A DNA stretch of 64,000 bases from Saprospiraceae bacterium (GTDB taxonomy: Bacteria; Bacteroidota; Bacteroidia; Chitinophagales; Saprospiraceae), in assembly GCA_020628645.1 (NCBI GenBank), contig JAHDES010000021.1:1-64000 (forward strand). Direction: 5' to 3'. The notes beneath the pieces were generated by a model. The model did not search any database, had not been told where the DNA came from, and saw nothing but the letters and a program-made list of their open reading frames with translations. This document shows positions 56,572 through 64,000 of this stretch, piece by piece (the first letter of the stretch is position 1; each line of letters opens with the position of its first letter). Both the position numbers and the translations under genes were made by a program.

Positions 56572-57246
56572 TTATTTCATTTGATAAATACTTTTCACGA
56601 ATAGATGATTCTCTTTTTTATCAAAAATGGCTGGAATAGGAATAACTAATCCTTCAATGGTAGAAGCCGTAATTTCGCCAGTTTTCGTTTTCAATTCTAA
56701 TTGATATTCTTTCTTTTCATTAAGAAGGTATTGTTCTACAATCTTCTTATTAGGTTCAATAATCCAATATTCTTTTACACCATGATTTTGGTAGTCTTGA
56801 TATTTGATTCCTCGGTCTCGTGCTTCTGTTCCTTTAGATAACACCTCAACAATCAAATCTGGAATAGGAAATAGCGCTTGATCTTTTTTGAATTTTTTCG
56901 CTATTGTTTTATTAAAAAAGCATAAATCTGGCTCATAATCATTTCTTGTACATTGTATCAAAATTTTCTCAAAGCCTACAAAACCAAGATCATTTTCAAT
57001 AGTATACGTTTCAATAATTTTTAGCAAATTTCCACAAACTTCATTGTGTGATTTTTTAACAGGGGAATGAATAATTATTTCTCCATTAATAAATTCTGCT
57101 TTTTCTTGTTCCGTAATTTGATTATAAAAGGCTTCTCTTTTTTCTTTTTCTTTATCTAAAATTGCTTTAACCCTTTCGACCAAAACAGGAGCATTGGGAG
57201 AATTTAAAATTTCAGTAATTAAATGTTCATTTAAACCAATCGTCAT
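56572..57246 (-). CDS. Uma2 family PD-(D/E)XK nuclease-fold protein
   Basis: 224 residues. A Uma2 (DUF820) restriction-endonuclease-like fold at about 45-190. Active-site pattern: EFINGEIII, YEPDLCF (Asp107), DLIVEVLSKGTEARDRGIK (Glu124, Lys138), DYQNHGVKEYWIIEP. The first ~45 residues are an extra helical segment. Uma2 proteins are abundant in cyanobacteria and filamentous Bacteroidota, often near mobile or repeat-rich DNA; their natural role is unresolved, with nuclease activity predicted and not shown. It lies 77 bp downstream of the glycerate kinase on the same strand but is probably not part of that pathway. Confidence 0.85.
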   Translation of the reverse strand: MTIGLNEHLITEILNSPNAPVLVERVKAILDKEKEKREAFYNQITEQEKAEFINGEIIIHSPVKKSHNEVCGNLLKIIETYTIENDLGFVGFEKILIQCTRNDYEPDLCFFNKTIAKKFKKDQALFPIPDLIVEVLSKGTEARDRGIKYQDYQNHGVKEYWIIEPNKKIVEQYLLNEKKEYQLELKTKTGEITASTIEGLVIPIPAIFDKKENHLFVKSIYQMK

Positions 57247-57323: not shown

Positions 57324-58436
57324 TCAATTGGAAAGAATTAAATCAACAGCCATATTTCTCAAATAAGCTGCTCCATTTTTCATCGCATCGTCTATATTAG
57401 AAGTCTGTTCTAAAATAGAATGAATTTTTACTGCATCTAACTGTATTTGTTCCTGTTTTGACAACTCATTTTTCCCCACAAAAAGCATCAATGGCTTTTG
57501 ATATTTTTTACATAGACTAGCAACGCCATCAACCACTTTTCCTTGCAGCGATTGGGTATCCAGTCGTCCTTCTCCGCTAATCACAAGATCAGCTTGTTGA
57601 ATTTGTTCTTCTAAATGCGTAAGTTCAATGAGACTTTCTATTCCACTTTTGATCTTCGCATCATATAGAGGAACAAGCGTTGCCGCAATCCCTCCCGCTG
57701 CGCCACTTCCTGCTAACTCAGCTATATTGATCCCAGTTTGTTGGTGAATCAATTGGCTAAACTGTCGCATGCCTTGGTCAAGTTCTACAATCATCGCATC
57801 ATCTGCGCCTTTTTGTCTAGCATAGACATGCGCTGCTCCATTAGTACCATAAAGGGGATTCGTCACATCACAAAGAAGGGTAATATTGACGTCTTTTTTG
57901 TAAAAAAAAGGATTATTTCGAATGGTCACCACTTTTGCGAGATTTCCACCAGAGGGATATAGGTTTCTCCCGTCTTTATCTAAAAATTCTGTTCCTAAAA
58001 CAGCCGCAATTCCCATACCGCCATCATTCGTTGCTGAACCACCTATAAAAAGATAGATTTCTTTATACCCCCAATCAATGGCATGTTTAATCAATTGACC
58101 TGTGCCTAGTGTAGTTGCTTTGAGGGGATTTCGTTCCTTTTCATCAAGCAAAACTAAACCACTTGCTTGTGCTAATTCTATAAAAGCAATCTTATTTGCA
58201 GTATAATAATAGGTTTCAATTTCTCGTCCCAAAGGATCAGATACTTGTACGAAGCGTTGCTTTAAGGTCAAATGTTGGCTCAAAATTTCTAAGGAACCAT
58301 CTCCCCCATCTGCCATCGGATGAAGGTGAATTTTCACATTTTTATTTTGCTGTAAAAGACCAGTTTGAATGGCTTTACACACTTCTATTGCAGAAAGTGA
58401 ACCTTTAAATTTATCGGGAGCGATTAGAATGTTCAT
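57324..58436 (-). CDS. glxK: glycerate kinase (GlxK/GarK type)
   Basis: 370 residues, cytoplasmic. ATP-dependent phosphorylation of D-glycerate, giving 2-phosphoglycerate in the GarK/GlxK type, which enters lower glycolysis. Family features are the N-terminal MNILIAPDKFKGSLSA, HPMADGGDGSLEIL (the conserved DGGDGS loop), IGGSATNDGGMGIAAVLG (nucleotide and substrate loop), and VISGEGRLDTQSLQGK near the end. Length is normal. It is downstream of a Na+/solute symporter and, further up, a GH63 hydrolase predicted to release glycerate, which makes a glycerate-consuming role coherent. Confidence 0.92.
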   Translation of the reverse strand: MNILIAPDKFKGSLSAIEVCKAIQTGLLQQNKNVKIHLHPMADGGDGSLEILSQHLTLKQRFVQVSDPLGREIETYYYTANKIAFIELAQASGLVLLDEKERNPLKATTLGTGQLIKHAIDWGYKEIYLFIGGSATNDGGMGIAAVLGTEFLDKDGRNLYPSGGNLAKVVTIRNNPFFYKKDVNITLLCDVTNPLYGTNGAAHVYARQKGADDAMIVELDQGMRQFSQLIHQQTGINIAELAGSGAAGGIAATLVPLYDAKIKSGIESLIELTHLEEQIQQADLVISGEGRLDTQSLQGKVVDGVASLCKKYQKPLMLFVGKNELSKQEQIQLDAVKIHSILEQTSNIDDAMKNGAAYLRNMAVDLILSN

Positions 58437-58517
58437 CTACTTCACCTATTAATTTTAAAAATATACATGGGTCAGTAAAATAGCGATTATTGCTTTACTT
58501 TTTTCATATATAACTTT

Positions 58518-58675
58518 GTTCTTTTTTACCGCAAAAAAGAACCAAAAAGCTCGTCGAATCGCATATTTTTCAGAACTTTTAACCTAGATTTTTAAATTTT
58601 TCCGCTACGACTCCAAAATCTTAAAAATTCTCCCTGAAGGGCGGTTAAAATTCTGGAAATTGCTTTTTTCGACAG
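58518..58675. repeat. palindromic intergenic element, copy 1
   Basis: Begins with a perfect hairpin GTTCTTTTTT-ACCGC-AAAAAAGAAC (58518-58542). A larger imperfect inverted repeat follows, CAGAACTTTTAACC (58571-58584) with GGTTAAAATTCTG (58643-58655), around smaller pairs. The hairpin plus AAAAAGC start resembles 61087-61162. It covers most of the gap between the symporter and glycerate kinase genes. Confidence 0.55.
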
Positions 58676-58726
58676 TCCTAATCTTAGCAATACGTGGCTT
58701 TCTTAAAATATTTATGCCTTTGTTTT

Positions 58727-60367
58727 TTAGCTAAAAAAAGTCGGTACCATATAACAAATTGCCAAAATGATCACAAAATAGGATAGTAAGATAATCGGTT
58801 CTTTCGATAAAAAGGAGGGTAATTGATAACTTGTTAAACCCTCTGTTTTGTTAGAAATTGAAGGTGTCATTGCGCTCACTAAATAAGCAATAGCTACCGT
58901 CAATGCAAAACCTGTAAAGTTCAACCACATCCAGAAAATACTAAATCCAAAATCTAATCCAAACATATTTTGCATCGTTTTAGAGAATACCAAATTTACT
59001 AGGACAGCGATGATAATACCTGCTTTCATACCTTGAGCATTGACCTTTTTAGAAAAAATAGCCAATACAAAAGTCGCTAAAACAGGCCCATAAAAAACCG
59101 ATCCAATGGCATTGATAATTTCTATAACGGGGCTATCACTTCCTCCAAAAAGGAAAGCCGCTCCGATACAAATCACGCCCCAAAATACCACTCCCAATTT
59201 GGAGATACGCATGTAGCGTTCATTGCTTAATTTCTTTGTACCACGATTGAAAAAATCTTCAACTGATACTGCTGATAAAGAATTGATGGTGCTACTCAAG
59301 GAAGACATTGCTGCCGACATGATACCAATCATCAAAATACCAATAAGTCCGTGTGGTAAATATTTCATTATAAAAACAGGAATCATTAAATCGGGTTTGA
59401 TTCCATTTTTGGCATATTCTTCTGGAAAAGAAGCTTGTGTTAAAGCTGTGATTTCATTCATAAAATCAGGCGTGGACAATGCCAGTGCGCCAACGATCAA
59501 GCCCATACAACAATACACAAAAACCACGGGGAAACGCAACAAGCCATTAGCAAGCAAAAGCTGTCGAATCGTCTTTTCATTTTTGGCGGATAATAATCGT
59601 TGGGCTTGCGTTTGGTCACAACCATAATAGGAAGCATATAAAAAGAAACCGCCAACAATCATCGGTACCAATCCATACTCCTCCCCTTTTGCAAATCCCC
59701 AATTATAATCCACAACTTGCAATCGTTCTGGTACTAAAATGGCTTCAAAACCACCATTAGCATCAATTAAACTCCAACCATAAAAAAGGCAAATCACCAA
59801 ACCAGAAAAAAGGATAATCATTTGAATAGCATCGCCCCAAACGACGGCTTTCATCCCTCCTTGCCAAGAATAAATTATGGTAATCACACTTATGATCAAA
59901 ATCGTATAAACAAAATCGATATTCAATACCGCTTGCAAAATAAAGGCAATTGTATAGACCATTACACCTGTACCTAAGGCTTTACTTATTTGGAAAACGA
60001 CACTCAATATCAAGCGAGTAGACGTATCAAAACGTTTTTCTACAAATTCGTAAATACTCACAATCCCTGAACGGTACAAAGGCGGAATGATTACCAACAT
60101 TATAAAGATCATCGCCAATGGAACAGCTAATTCGTAGGAGAGCCATTTCATACCGCCATTCAATTTGAGCCCTACAAAAGCAGGTGCCGAAATAAAACTG
60201 ATAGCAGATAATTGCGTCGCCATAGTCGAAAGGCTCAATGGAAACCAGCCCAAACTCTTCCCTCCTAGAAAATAGTCTTTACTATCCTTATTATCTTTGA
60301 ATAGCATGCCGAGTAGCAAGAAGCCAATAATATAGCAGGCAATGACGATATAGTCGATGTAGTTCAT
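58727..60367 (-). CDS. sodium:solute symporter (SSS family)
   Basis: 546 residues from the ATG giving MNYIDYIVIACY, chosen because it begins at the first membrane segment; an in-frame ATG at 60454 would extend into the upstream GNAT gene. About 13-14 membrane segments have the SSS signatures: DYFLGGKSLGWFPLSLS early, YELAVPLAMIFIML, and the Na+-site stretch AMSSLSSTINSLSAV in the middle. The family co-transports Na+ with sugars, carboxylates, amino acids or osmolytes. The closest pattern is the sugar/sialic-type SGLT-like branch. It starts 11 bp after the GNAT stop, so the two are co-transcribed. Substrate is inferred from context as a sugar, glycerate or glycosylglycerate. Confidence 0.9.
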   Translation of the reverse strand: MNYIDYIVIACYIIGFLLLGMLFKDNKDSKDYFLGGKSLGWFPLSLSTMATQLSAISFISAPAFVGLKLNGGMKWLSYELAVPLAMIFIMLVIIPPLYRSGIVSIYEFVEKRFDTSTRLILSVVFQISKALGTGVMVYTIAFILQAVLNIDFVYTILIISVITIIYSWQGGMKAVVWGDAIQMIILFSGLVICLFYGWSLIDANGGFEAILVPERLQVVDYNWGFAKGEEYGLVPMIVGGFFLYASYYGCDQTQAQRLLSAKNEKTIRQLLLANGLLRFPVVFVYCCMGLIVGALALSTPDFMNEITALTQASFPEEYAKNGIKPDLMIPVFIMKYLPHGLIGILMIGIMSAAMSSLSSTINSLSAVSVEDFFNRGTKKLSNERYMRISKLGVVFWGVICIGAAFLFGGSDSPVIEIINAIGSVFYGPVLATFVLAIFSKKVNAQGMKAGIIIAVLVNLVFSKTMQNMFGLDFGFSIFWMWLNFTGFALTVAIAYLVSAMTPSISNKTEGLTSYQLPSFLSKEPIILLSYFVIILAICYMVPTFFS

Positions 60368-60377
60368 ATGGTTGATG

Positions 60378-60956
60378 TTATGTTTTAGATTGATTTTCCC
60401 ATTCCTCTCGTAAAATACTAAAAAGATGGAGGTGCACGCGCTTATTTCCTTCAATACTGTATAAAAAATTGCGGAGTACGCCTTCTTCTTGTACCCCTAT
60501 TTTTTTTAAGGCGGCTATACTTCTTAAATTTTCAGCATGTACCCCAAATCCTATTCGTTCTAATTGCAAAGTTTCAAAAGCAAATTGAAAAAGAAGATAC
60601 TTCGTTTGCGTATTCAATCCAGTTCCCCAAAATTCTCTGCCGTACCACGTATGTCCTAATTTGATGATTTTTAAAGCTGCATCATAACTATAAAAGCGCG
60701 TGATGCCAGCAAATTGATGGGTCTTTTTATCAAAGATAACAAAGGGATATTCTGAATTTTCTTTTCTTTTTTGAATGGCTTCGGTAATGTAGTTGGTTAA
60801 AGCTGTTTTTCCTTGTCCTTTTTCTAAAAAGTACATCCAAATTTCTGCATTTTCCGAAAGGATAGACAAGGCATCAATATGTTCCAACTGCAACGGACTT
60901 AATCGAACTCGATCATTTTCTAAGGTATAATTTTTTGAGAAATCAAATGGAGGCAT
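60378..60956 (-). CDS. GNAT family N-acetyltransferase (RimJ/RimL type)
   Basis: 192 residues, cytoplasmic. Acetyl-CoA-dependent acyltransferase fold: RVRLSPLQLEHIDAL at the start, a central PFVIFDKKTHQFAGITRFY, then HTWYGREFWGTGLNTQTKYLL in place of the usual Q/RxxGxG/A acetyl-CoA loop, and LERIGFGVHAENLRSIAALKKIGVQEEG near the end. This is the RimJ/RimL-like subfamily, which acetylates N-termini of ribosomal proteins or small amines. Its stop is 10 bp before the symporter ATG, so they form an operon; its role there is unclear. Confidence 0.85.
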   Translation of the reverse strand: MPPFDFSKNYTLENDRVRLSPLQLEHIDALSILSENAEIWMYFLEKGQGKTALTNYITEAIQKRKENSEYPFVIFDKKTHQFAGITRFYSYDAALKIIKLGHTWYGREFWGTGLNTQTKYLLFQFAFETLQLERIGFGVHAENLRSIAALKKIGVQEEGVLRNFLYSIEGNKRVHLHLFSILREEWENQSKT

Positions 60957-61086
60957 AATTATAAATTACTTTTTTATACTCTATAGAAAAAGTCTATTAC
61001 GTTAATTCATTTTCAGTTTATCATCAATTTTTAATCGTCTAAATATTTGTTTTCAAGCTAATTGTCGCCTCTAGCCGGCTGGGCTT

Positions 61087-61162
61087 TTCTTTTTGACATT
61101 GCCTCAAAAAGAAACAAAAAACGCTAGAAAAGATAAACTCCTCCGTCAGACACTATCTTTTC
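61087..61162. repeat. palindromic intergenic element, copy 2
   Basis: Begins with the perfect hairpin TTCTTTTTGA-CATTGCC-TCAAAAAGAA (61087-61113), followed by ACAAAAAACGC and then a second inverted repeat GAAAAGATA/TATCTTTTC (61127-61135, 61154-61162). The layout matches 58518-58675 although the sequence is not the same. It lies in the 286-bp gap between the GH63 gene and the GNAT gene. Confidence 0.45.
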
Positions 61163-61242
61163 GAGCCTCCCGCCAGTATTTTAGGTTATATTTATTCAAA
61201 AAACTACAATTCTATTCAAAATTCATTTTTGCCATACTCGAC

Positions 61243-62550
61243 TTAACAATCCCTTACTAAATCTAAAGTACAAGCTGCTGTCCAACTAAAATTGCCACCG
61301 CCATAACCCGTTTCTAAACGAGCTGCTACGTCTTTTTGAGATTCAAAATATTCATAAAAACCCAATTTAGAAACGAGTTCTATCAAATCAGCTTTTACAA
61401 TGGCTGCTGTATCTTCAAAACCATAGGCTTTTAAACCATGATGAATCATCCAATTCATCTGTGGCCAGATCGGGCCTCTCCAATAGCGTTTGGAATCAAA
61501 GAGCGGACTATCCACATCAAAGCTTGGACAAATGTAGTAGCCTCGCTGATGTAAACTTTGTAAATAGTTATTTAATTTTAGGGCTTGCAATGAAGTAGGA
61601 ATCTCTGCATAGAGCGCAGATAAGCCACCTATTTCTTTATGAGAAACAGCATGATTGGCACGAAGATCGTAAACCGTAAAGGTTTCCAATTCTTCATTCC
61701 ATAATTTCTCTGCAAATTTAGGTTTGGCTTGTTGTTGCCATTCTTCGATTTCAGCAGTATCAAAACCAAATCGTTTTCCTAGTTGTATCAAGGAATCATT
61801 CGATTTGATTAATACCGCATTCATTAGGGTATCTTGGATGAGAAAAGGACTTTCTTCGAAGATGCCTCGTTCATCGTATTTGTATTTTTTACCCAATTGC
61901 AATAAATAGACATAGCGATCATATTGGTAAGAGGTCGGCCGTTCATCTGCGTGGGCGATACTCGTATCTCTACGTTGATAGTTTGGTAAATCTTCTTTAT
62001 TAAAAACGGTACGATCCATCGATTCATCCCAAAGGGGGGAATTATCCCGTCCAGATTCCCAAGGATGAAAAATAAAGGTTAAACCCTCTCTTTCAGGATC
62101 ACGATATTGATAAAACCAACGATGTAATTTGACTATTTTAGGAAAAAGTTCTTTTGCAAAAGCGACTAATTTTTCGCTATCAGGAAATTGCTCCAACAAT
62201 CGTTCTAAAACAAAACCATGAACAGCAGGTTGGGTAATGCCAGAGGTTTTGGGTTTATCAGGTGCACCTATATTTACATTGGCATCCCAAAAATCATAGT
62301 TTGGGAAATAGGTTTTTTCATTTTCACTATGAAAAACAATGTGGGGAATCATTCCATTTTCCCATTGAGCAGAAAATAAGGATTGTAATTCCCGAATGGC
62401 GAAATCGAGATCAAAATGCCCCTGCCCTAGCGCAGTAAAGCCAGAATCCCAATTCCATTGAAATGGATATAAACGACTGGTCGGAATAGTAAAACCATCT
62501 TTCCAGTTTTTTATCAAAATTTGTTGAGCGGGTTGTACGAGTTGTTCCAA
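61243..62550 (-). CDS. GH63-type glycosidase, probable glucosylglycerate/mannosylglycerate hydrolase
   Basis: 435 residues, cytoplasmic (no signal). An (alpha/alpha)6-barrel of the trehalase/GH63 clan: FQWNWDSGFTALGQGHFDLD at the start, YDFWDANVNIGAPDKP, HPWESGRDNSPLWDESMDR with Asp169 as candidate general acid, RGPIWPQMNWMIHHGL, and a C-terminal ETGYGGGNFSWTAA with Glu413 as candidate base. Size and motifs fit the compact bacterial GH63 enzymes that split glucosylglycerate or mannosylglycerate into a hexose and D-glycerate. The wider trehalase-type superfamily also holds trehalases and alpha-glucosidases. Downstream on the same strand are GNAT, Na+/solute symporter and glycerate kinase, which supports the glycerate-releasing reading. 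Confidence 0.8.
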   Translation of the reverse strand: MEQLVQPAQQILIKNWKDGFTIPTSRLYPFQWNWDSGFTALGQGHFDLDFAIRELQSLFSAQWENGMIPHIVFHSENEKTYFPNYDFWDANVNIGAPDKPKTSGITQPAVHGFVLERLLEQFPDSEKLVAFAKELFPKIVKLHRWFYQYRDPEREGLTFIFHPWESGRDNSPLWDESMDRTVFNKEDLPNYQRRDTSIAHADERPTSYQYDRYVYLLQLGKKYKYDERGIFEESPFLIQDTLMNAVLIKSNDSLIQLGKRFGFDTAEIEEWQQQAKPKFAEKLWNEELETFTVYDLRANHAVSHKEIGGLSALYAEIPTSLQALKLNNYLQSLHQRGYYICPSFDVDSPLFDSKRYWRGPIWPQMNWMIHHGLKAYGFEDTAAIVKADLIELVSKLGFYEYFESQKDVAARLETGYGGGNFSWTAACTLDLVRDC

Positions 62551-62571
62551 GACAATATGCTTTAAAAATTA

Positions 62572-62614
62572 AGGGAATTGGAAAGTAGAATTTTAGTCGT
62601 CTTTCCAACTCCCT
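62572..62614 (-). terminator. hairpin upstream of the GH63 gene
   Basis: A 14-bp stem with one mismatch (AGGGAATTGGAAAG at 62572-62585; CTTTCCAACTCCCT at 62601-62614). On the minus strand it is followed by TTAATTTTT, so it may terminate readthrough from the receptor gene or attenuate GH63 expression. Confidence 0.5.
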
Positions 62615-62663
62615 AAACTAGTTGTTTTTATAAAATTTATAAAAGCTAATTTAGATAAAAAAC

Positions 62664-62690
62664 ATTGGTGGACGAAATTCGACCACCAAT
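62664..62690 (-). terminator. intrinsic terminator of the TonB-dependent receptor gene
   Basis: An 11-bp stem with one mismatch (ATTGGTGG-a-CGA with TCG-a-CCACCAAT) has a tiny loop and is followed on the minus strand by GTTTTTTATC. The MITE-like element lies between it and the stop codon of the receptor. Confidence 0.75.
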
Positions 62691-62698
62691 ATACCTAA

Positions 62699-62836
62699 TA
62701 AGTAGTTTTAGGGGATTAATCGGGCAGAAAAAATCCTTTAAGATTTCCCAAAAAGGTCTAAAAACCTCCATACTGTCGGTATTTTTGCCCATTTCAGAAA
62801 ATCATTTTTTTGCCCAATTAATTAATACCCCTTACT
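62699..62836. repeat. MITE-like element, copy 2 (138 bp)
   Basis: Direct copy of 49761-49899, almost identical along its length. It has the same imperfect terminal inverted repeats and lies in the 3' untranslated part of the TonB-dependent receptor transcript. Confidence 0.85.
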
Positions 62837-62851
62837 ATAGTATGAAACGTC

Positions 62852-64000
62852 TTAGAAGTTTAAGGTACCTGTTACGAAAATCCTTCTTGGAAGAATTGGA
62901 CGACCAAAGAAAAATTCGTTTTCCCCTTGTACAATAGCTCTTGGATTTCCTTCTGTAATTCCTTGCGAATCGGTTAGGTTAAATACAGAGAAACCTAAAC
63001 GGAATGATTCTGTTCCAGCAGTTCCCAAACCAAAGGTATAACCCGCACCAAGACGCATTAAATTGATTGGATCTAATTCAATATCGTTGTTATCATTAGT
63101 GAATTTAGCACCTGTATGGTTTAAGGTAAAGAAAGCATCAAAAGCATCATTGTCATAGTATAAACCAAGGAAACCCAACATATTTGGCTGACGACCTAAT
63201 TCATTTCCTTCATTTACTGTTTCTATTTCCCCTGTAATTAAATCTTCTCTGGTATTCGTCGTGATTTCATGATCTTGGAAGGTGAATGTACCTCTTAAAT
63301 TTAGATCATTGGCTAATTGGTAATCAAAGGTTAATTCCAAACCAAGAGTAGCTGTATTTTGCTCATTTCGTTTTACAGGTTCTAAACGACCATTGACAAA
63401 AGAGTTCTGAATAGAAATACGATCAGAAAGTCCTACATAATAAATCGCAGCCGAACCACTTAATTTTTCTGTTCCTAATTTAACACCTACTTCCCCTTGT
63501 AAAATGGTTTCAGGATTATAATCCGTACCTGTAAATCCAGTTGCAATTGGCGCAAATCCACGGAATTGAGGGAAGAAATATCCTCTAGAAAAGTTCGCAT
63601 ATAAATTCATCGCATCACTCATCTCATACAAACCTGCTAAAGAAACGGCCCAACTAGAAGCATCAATACCCGCACGGACGAAACTACCATCTGCAAAACG
63701 AACATTTGCCAATCCTGCTGATAAATTTGGATCATCATAAACCGTAGATTCTACGATATTACCATTGCTAAATTGTCCTTTTGTATTTTCAAAACGGAAC
63801 CCTACATCAAAACGCCATCTGTCTGCCACGATCTCATCGGTGATATAAAAGGCAGTTCGATTTTGTTGTAAAAAGCGATTACTCGTTTGACCAATACGAT
63901 TAGAAATCCCCCCTTGCGAATGAATCACTTCTTGACCAGTAGAATCCGTATAAGTAATATCTACTAATTTGGGATTGTTGTTCCATTCAGAAACGACACG
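62852..64000 (-). CDS. TonB-dependent receptor, C-terminal part (runs off window edge)
   Basis: The reading frame is open to the window end at 64000, so only the C-terminal ~382 residues are visible. They form a beta barrel: repeated amphipathic strands such as MNLYANFSRGYFFPQF, LSGSAAIYYVGLSDRISI, NTATLGLELTFDYQL, LNLRGTFTFQDHEI, MRLGAGYTFGLG, and the ending RRIFVTGTLNF, where the terminal Phe is the outer-membrane insertion signal. The family takes up siderophores, vitamin B12 or glycans using TonB energy. The plug and signal are outside the window, so the substrate cannot be read. It is upstream of, and on the same strand as, the GH63 locus, but a terminator lies between. Confidence 0.85.
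   Translation of the reverse strand, partial: RVVSEWNNNPKLVDITYTDSTGQEVIHSQGGISNRIGQTSNRFLQQNRTAFYITDEIVADRWRFDVGFRFENTKGQFSNGNIVESTVYDDPNLSAGLANVRFADGSFVRAGIDASSWAVSLAGLYEMSDAMNLYANFSRGYFFPQFRGFAPIATGFTGTDYNPETILQGEVGVKLGTEKLSGSAAIYYVGLSDRISIQNSFVNGRLEPVKRNEQNTATLGLELTFDYQLANDLNLRGTFTFQDHEITTNTREDLITGEIETVNEGNELGRQPNMLGFLGLYYDNDAFDAFFTLNHTGAKFTNDNNDIELDPINLMRLGAGYTFGLGTAGTESFRLGFSVFNLTDSQGITEGNPRAIVQGENEFFFGRPILPRRIFVTGTLNF

Follow-up and report, generated by a model that had tools for sequence, protein, structure and literature searches.

Two glycosylglycerates, 2-O-alpha-mannosyl-D-glycerate (MG, also known as digeneaside) and 2-O-alpha-glucosyl-D-glycerate (GG), are degraded by several kinds of enzymes. 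In Escherichia coli, mngA and mngB specify the import of MG by a PTS, with phosphorylation, and its cleavage by a GH38 enzyme. GG can be converted into glycerate and a glucose unit by glucosylglycerate phosphorylase (GH13_18), which acts by phosphorolysis. Finally, the GH63 hydrolases include the mannosylglycerate hydrolase of Thermus thermophilus HB8 (Tt8MgH; TTHA0978, 2z07/4wva) and the glucosylglycerate hydrolase of Mycolicibacterium hassiacum (MhGgH): the Thermus and Selaginella enzymes are similarly efficient on MG and GG, whereas MhGgH prefers GG nearly 10-fold, and in mycobacteria GgH serves the internal recovery that follows nitrogen starvation (PMC6608630). The degradation of MG has already been proposed for marine Flavobacteria: Maribacter dokdonensis is reported to have homologues of the digeneaside-degradation genes characterised in Zobellia galactanivorans by Barbeyron et al. 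2016 (PMC8072126), and digeneaside is listed among the possible substrates of North Sea Flavobacteriia (PMC6298971).

We analysed a stretch of 64,000 nt, hereafter the window, from Saprospiraceae bacterium GCA_020628645.1 (contig JAHDES010000021.1, positions 1 to 64,000). It carries what is, judging from the sequence, very probably a catabolic operon for external MG and/or GG. The hydrolase of this locus shares with Tt8MgH its length, its family, the catalytic Asp/Glu pair and the substrate contacts, but it is encoded in an operon with a TonB-dependent receptor (TBDR), an SSS Na+/solute symporter and a glycerate kinase, in a host without a recognised mannosyl-3-phosphoglycerate synthase (MPGS). 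The locus would have in common with mngA/mngB the import and cleavage of MG as a carbon source, all protein families being different, and with glucosylglycerate phosphorylase the release of glycerate and a glucose unit from GG, by hydrolysis instead of phosphorolysis. Substrate class and phylum are those of the Zobellia and Maribacter genes, but the sources consulted (PMC8072126, PMC6298971) describe no receptor, AraC or LacI regulator or GNAT protein, and no Saprospiraceae. A search of the open-access literature found no description of a Na+ symporter or a TonB receptor for glycosylglycerates.

The GH63 hydrolase and its active site

The hydrolase gene (61243..62550, minus strand) encodes a short GH63 protein of 435 aa; its start codon is an uncertain TTG, and residue numbers are therefore provisional. 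The protein matches the single-domain MgH/GgH family over its full length: PF22422 ('mannosylglycerate hydrolase MGH1-like', Pfam) is covered from 1 to 356 of 356 with 304 bits, and 2z07 aligns over residues 7-428. Its nearest solved protein is Tt8MgH (E 3.9e-96), with MhGgH (E about 1e-57 to 1e-55) and then E. coli YgjK (E 3e-6) behind. The NCBIfam model for glucosylglycerate hydrolase, NF047898, gave 323 bits, the YgjK model 47 and the TreA model 19; because the equivalog cut-off of 550 bits was not reached, we do not name the protein a GgH proper. In a tree that also contained TreA, YgjK and the trehalase-like and YgjK-like paralogues of this genome, support was 100/100 for the separation of the TreA group and 97/100 for that of the YgjK group, and the protein stayed with Tt8MgH and MhGgH, as the sequence-only reading had anticipated when it proposed a glycerate-releasing enzyme. 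Support for the node that joins Tt8MgH and MhGgH to the Bacteroidota proteins is only 83/54, and MhGgH lies on a long branch. Scores, tree and active site together ruled out that the protein is a trehalase or a YgjK.

The substrate contacts described for MhGgH (PMC6608630) were compared across 81 proteins. The catalytic acid D169 and base E400 (Asp182 and Glu419 in MhGgH) are kept in 81/81 and 80/80 proteins, respectively (one gap). The residues in contact with GG and MG, namely, in MhGgH numbering, Y36, W40, W42, D43, Y88, F89, Q115, W177, G180, D182, R216, Y222, Y375, W376, W381, E419 and W436, are all shared by the window protein and hardly vary across the set (F89 is Y in 8). The glycerate subsite is fully kept, Tyr36, Trp40, Tyr88, Arg216, Tyr222 and Tyr375 of MhGgH corresponding to Y28, W32, Y81, R204, Y210 and Y356. 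Thus, the catalytic pair and the glycerate-binding residues are those of MhGgH, from which the protein differs by its NF047898 score and by the position of Gln434, a sugar-binding residue in MhGgH (PMC6608630): the window protein and Tt8MgH both have a Phe at this position, as do all relatives in which the alignment column is occupied. The active site therefore appears to resemble the Thermus type, with MG and GG about equal, more closely than the GG-preferring mycobacterial type, and the Phe may point to a specificity that is dual or includes MG. Residues near the site (MhGgH 191, 212-215 and 432-433) vary among relatives. No signal peptide was seen in the sequence, and the enzyme is predicted to be cytoplasmic.

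Note that two relatives of the same family (L024, G032:C49, and L025, G017:C246) encode a shorter GH63-like protein of 376-382 aa without the cap stretch (model about 170-235) that bears the glycerate-binding Arg and Tyr; another substrate is therefore expected there.

Gene order and its conservation

The hydrolase gene is followed on the minus strand by genes for a GNAT acetyltransferase (60378..60956; PF13302, RimJ/RimL-like), the SSS symporter (58727..60367) and a glycerate kinase of the GarK/GlxK family (57324..58436; PF02595). The sequence-only reading had placed these four genes correctly and Pfam and NCBIfam back their families, but the locus is larger than the extent it gave: the TBDR gene (62852..64000 in the window, to 65638 on the contig, same strand) and an AraC-type regulator gene had been missed. 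The regulator gene (contig 65770-66627, outside the window) is divergent from the TBDR gene, 131 bases away from it, so that the unit reads AraC < > TBDR - GH63 - GNAT - SSS - glycerate kinase. The window edge cuts the receptor gene and leaves the C-terminal 382 aa inside; the whole gene (62852-65638, contig G000:C83) encodes about 928 aa.

For the symporter, the mechanical ORF opens at a TTG (60454), but we preferred the ATG at 60367 because the homologues begin there; it is most likely the true start, and it leaves 10 bases between the GNAT and SSS genes. The other intergenic gaps are longer (301 bp for TBDR/GH63, 286 for GH63/GNAT and 290 for SSS/glycerate kinase), so that a single transcript for the unit is presumptive. 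In related loci, overlaps of 4 bases or spacings of a few bases are frequent between the operon genes. The GH63/GNAT gap (60957..61242) and the SSS/glycerate kinase gap (58437..58726) each contain a dispersed repeat and no part of the pathway; the rest of the genome has about 20 stretches similar to the first repeat and about 6 similar to the second. At both junctions, the gaps of most relatives are much shorter. The two repeats differ from each other, and both carry an A/T-rich hairpin, such as GTTCTTTTTTGCGGTAAAAAAGAAC. They were discarded as riboswitches or known RNAs: Rfam gave nothing up to E 1, and their folding is no better than that of shuffles. The TBDR/GH63 gap (62551-62851) contains two inverted repeats, TTGGTGGTCGAATTTCGTCCACCAA and GGGAGTTGGAAAG...CTTTCCAATTCCC, the latter followed by T-rich sequence; the transcript could be ended or processed there, between receptor and hydrolase. 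At the other end of the unit, directly 3' of the glycerate kinase gene and on the same strand, a gene that by eye resembles those of Uma2-type (nuclease-fold) proteins (56572-57246) is absent from the recurrent neighbours in relatives.

We then clustered and ordered the ORFs of 80 Bacteroidota loci from Saprospiraceae, Lewinellaceae, Reichenbachiellaceae, Spirosomataceae and Flavobacteriaceae, which are the best matches of a contig scan and no random sample, restricting each count to the loci with sufficient flanking sequence. The SSS gene lies directly 3' of GH63 on the same strand in 72/75 testable loci and the glycerate kinase gene downstream of GH63 in 53/64, so that the two neighbours on which the import-and-cleavage proposal depended are indeed kept. 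Of the 66 loci testable for the receptor, 41 have a TBDR gene directly 5' of GH63 in the same orientation, and a divergent AraC or LacI gene is present in 41 of 60, the regulator being of the LacI type in Flavobacteriaceae; the receptor and a recognised regulator are missing from about a third of the related loci. A ROK sugar kinase gene is found in 5/64 loci by strict count, and adjacent to or inside the operon in six related loci. As the same order is kept in dozens of genomes, chance is excluded as the source of the gene set. This probable glycosylglycerate utilisation operon of Bacteroidota is a real and widely conserved unit, with enzymes of known kinds; what is new is mainly the full transport chain and how tightly the genes travel together.

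Symporters and receptors each fall into two subtypes (36 loci for each of the SSS subtypes), which are freely mixed, irrespective of GH63 similarity: the window symporter is 84-85% identical to those of L041 and L042 and 56% identical to that of L088, the locus with the closest GH63 protein (82%). Operon parts were therefore probably exchanged in place, with retention of the set, and the idea that the pairing of symporter and receptor subtypes forms a specificity code was dropped.

Among 59 relatives, co-occurrence was scored with thresholds of >280 bits for a full-length GH63 homologue and >280 bits for the SSS subfamily (the next SSS match had 174 bits). GH63 is present in 14 of these genomes, and the SSS subfamily in 13/14 of the genomes with GH63 versus 0/45 of the others. 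In 295 other Bacteroidota genomes, 12 have both, 4 only GH63, 3 (one genus) only the SSS subfamily and 276 neither. The Fisher p values, about 1e-12 for the relatives and about 1e-15 for the 295 genomes, are only indicative, the genomes being related. The SSS family as a whole is common throughout the compared genomes, so that the link of GH63 is to this particular subfamily.

Proposed transport and product fate

The receptor has CarboxypepD_reg-like, Plug and beta-barrel domains. It matches TIGR04056 in its N-terminal part only, with 96 bits for a cut-off of 368, and there is no SusD-like gene between the TBDR, GH63 and AraC genes; a SusC/SusD polysaccharide utilisation locus was ruled out on these two grounds. 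For a solute of about 270 Da, small enough to pass through porins, a TonB receptor is elaborate machinery.

The symporter matches PF00474 (SSF) with 139.8 bits (cut-off 22.8) and TIGR00813 with 217.5 bits (cut-off 184). Its nearest solved relative is 5nv9 (E 9e-41), the Proteus sialic acid symporter SiaT; iodide and vitamin symporters are close behind, and the ranking is therefore barely informative on substrate. Residues A50, L53, S355, S356, S358, S359 and D179 align to 5nv9 and are kept in 71-74 of 74 proteins; the assignment of a Na+-binding role among them follows SiaT, and from these kept residues we infer that the symporter is coupled to Na+. Position 129 is basic in the whole set (Arg in 72 and Lys in 2 of 74, K129 in the window) and aligns three residues before the arginine of SiaT that binds the sialate carboxylate; a basic residue at this place would fit an anionic substrate. 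Homology as such leaves the substrates of receptor and symporter unfixed, and a glycosylglycerate is the substrate to which gene context and co-occurrence point for the symporter.

The glycerate kinase is the only member of its family detected in the genome (PF02595, 415 bits, profile 1-366 of 372; 3cwc, E 1e-74). The organism's glycerate metabolism is therefore tied to the locus.

Taken together, the data lead to the following scheme. The TBDR would carry the solute over the outer membrane, and the symporter would bring it over the inner membrane with Na+. In the cytoplasm, the GH63 enzyme, from its close homology and kept active site, would hydrolyse MG or GG with inversion into free hexose and D-glycerate. 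The kinase would phosphorylate the glycerate, probably to 2-phosphoglycerate, the product of GarK, which would enter glycolysis. The hexose would be phosphorylated by a ROK-type kinase, for which genes exist elsewhere in the genome and which a few relatives have in the operon. Expression is probably under the control of the divergent regulator, which is of the AraC type here and LacI in Flavobacteriaceae. The import, cleavage and phosphorylation proposed by the sequence-only reading thus appear largely right.

The GNAT gene, which that reading had left unexplained, stays without a place in the scheme. Its product matches PF13302 with 70 bits (Pfam). The family occurs in 12/81 loci, window included; it is part of the operon in most of them, one of these operons being flavobacterial, and lies between GH63 and SSS in 9/75 loci by strict count. 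In Winogradskyella eximia (L099, 9397-9585), a GNAT tail alone matches in the 309-base gap between GH63 and SSS; the gene seems to be decaying, and dispensable, there.

Scavenging, competing explanations and significance

Scavenging and osmolyte recycling had both been considered for this locus. No MPGS was found in the genome, which is 99.8% complete (Thermus served as positive control), and GpgS gave weak, partial and generic matches of at most 56 bits for a cut-off of 262. Scavenging is therefore favoured, within a search that covered MPGS and GpgS, over own synthesis, for which the single-enzyme MG synthase (MgS, GT78) would be a further route; the receptor and the regulator agree with scavenging. 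A recycling role, in which the cell would reuse glycosylglycerate of its own making once osmotic stress has passed and the symporter would take back what has leaked out, would parallel the internal recovery shown for GgH in mycobacteria (PMC6608630), but with no MPGS, no GpgS above cut-off and with a TonB receptor and a dedicated regulator that fit scavenging, this part of the earlier proposal is weakened and we hold it to be very unlikely. The marine setting suggested at the same time is not established for this organism.

Two other explanations concern the substrate. The operon might handle a related acidic alpha-glycoside, e.g. a glycosylglycerate with an extra sugar or an acyl group (to which the GNAT protein would then relate), from which glycerate would still be released. 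Such a substrate would give a role to a GNAT family that is mostly in-operon where present, would suit the variable residues around the site and would make the receptor less disproportionate; against this, in both subsites the contact residues match those of enzymes shown to act on GG and MG, and the enclosed MhGgH site rejects even glucosylglycerol and glucosylglycolate (PMC6608630), so that we give this explanation little credence. An outright trehalose or alpha-glucoside utilisation locus, with the kinase in an unrelated pathway, is highly improbable: the Pfam Trehalase and Glyco_hydro_63 models do match the hydrolase, but weakly (38 bits each), whereas scores, tree and active site all indicate MgH/GgH, the genome has separate trehalase-like (L134) and YgjK-like (L133) genes, and the kinase is linked in most loci. 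On another contig, a GH13_18 gene (L145, G000:C44:11862-13331; 472 bits to the sucrose phosphorylase model) has a divergent LacI gene beside it and no recognised synthase nearby, and is unlinked to the GH63 locus. Candidate substrates of this phosphorylase are sucrose, sucrose phosphate and glucosylglycerate, and it could be the one that serves glucosylglycerate, instead of the GH63 locus.

Our preferred reading remains an operon for the uptake and hydrolysis of external MG and/or GG. A bolder version, in which glycosylglycerates have in the SSS subfamily their first dedicated Na+-driven transporter, fed by a dedicated TonB receptor and accompanied by a GNAT protein modifying substrate or product in a step new to glycosylglycerate pathways, is a long shot. 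GG is found in picocyanobacteria and cyanobacterial mat consortia (PMC11631117; PMC3985010). More generally, the producers of GG and MG comprise picocyanobacteria, red algae, mycobacteria and thermophiles, while their consumers are little documented. The short GH63 protein and its SSS partner would provide a marker pair by which the consumers of these solutes could be counted in genomes and metagenomes, and the SSS partner is a named candidate transporter for an anionic glycoside.
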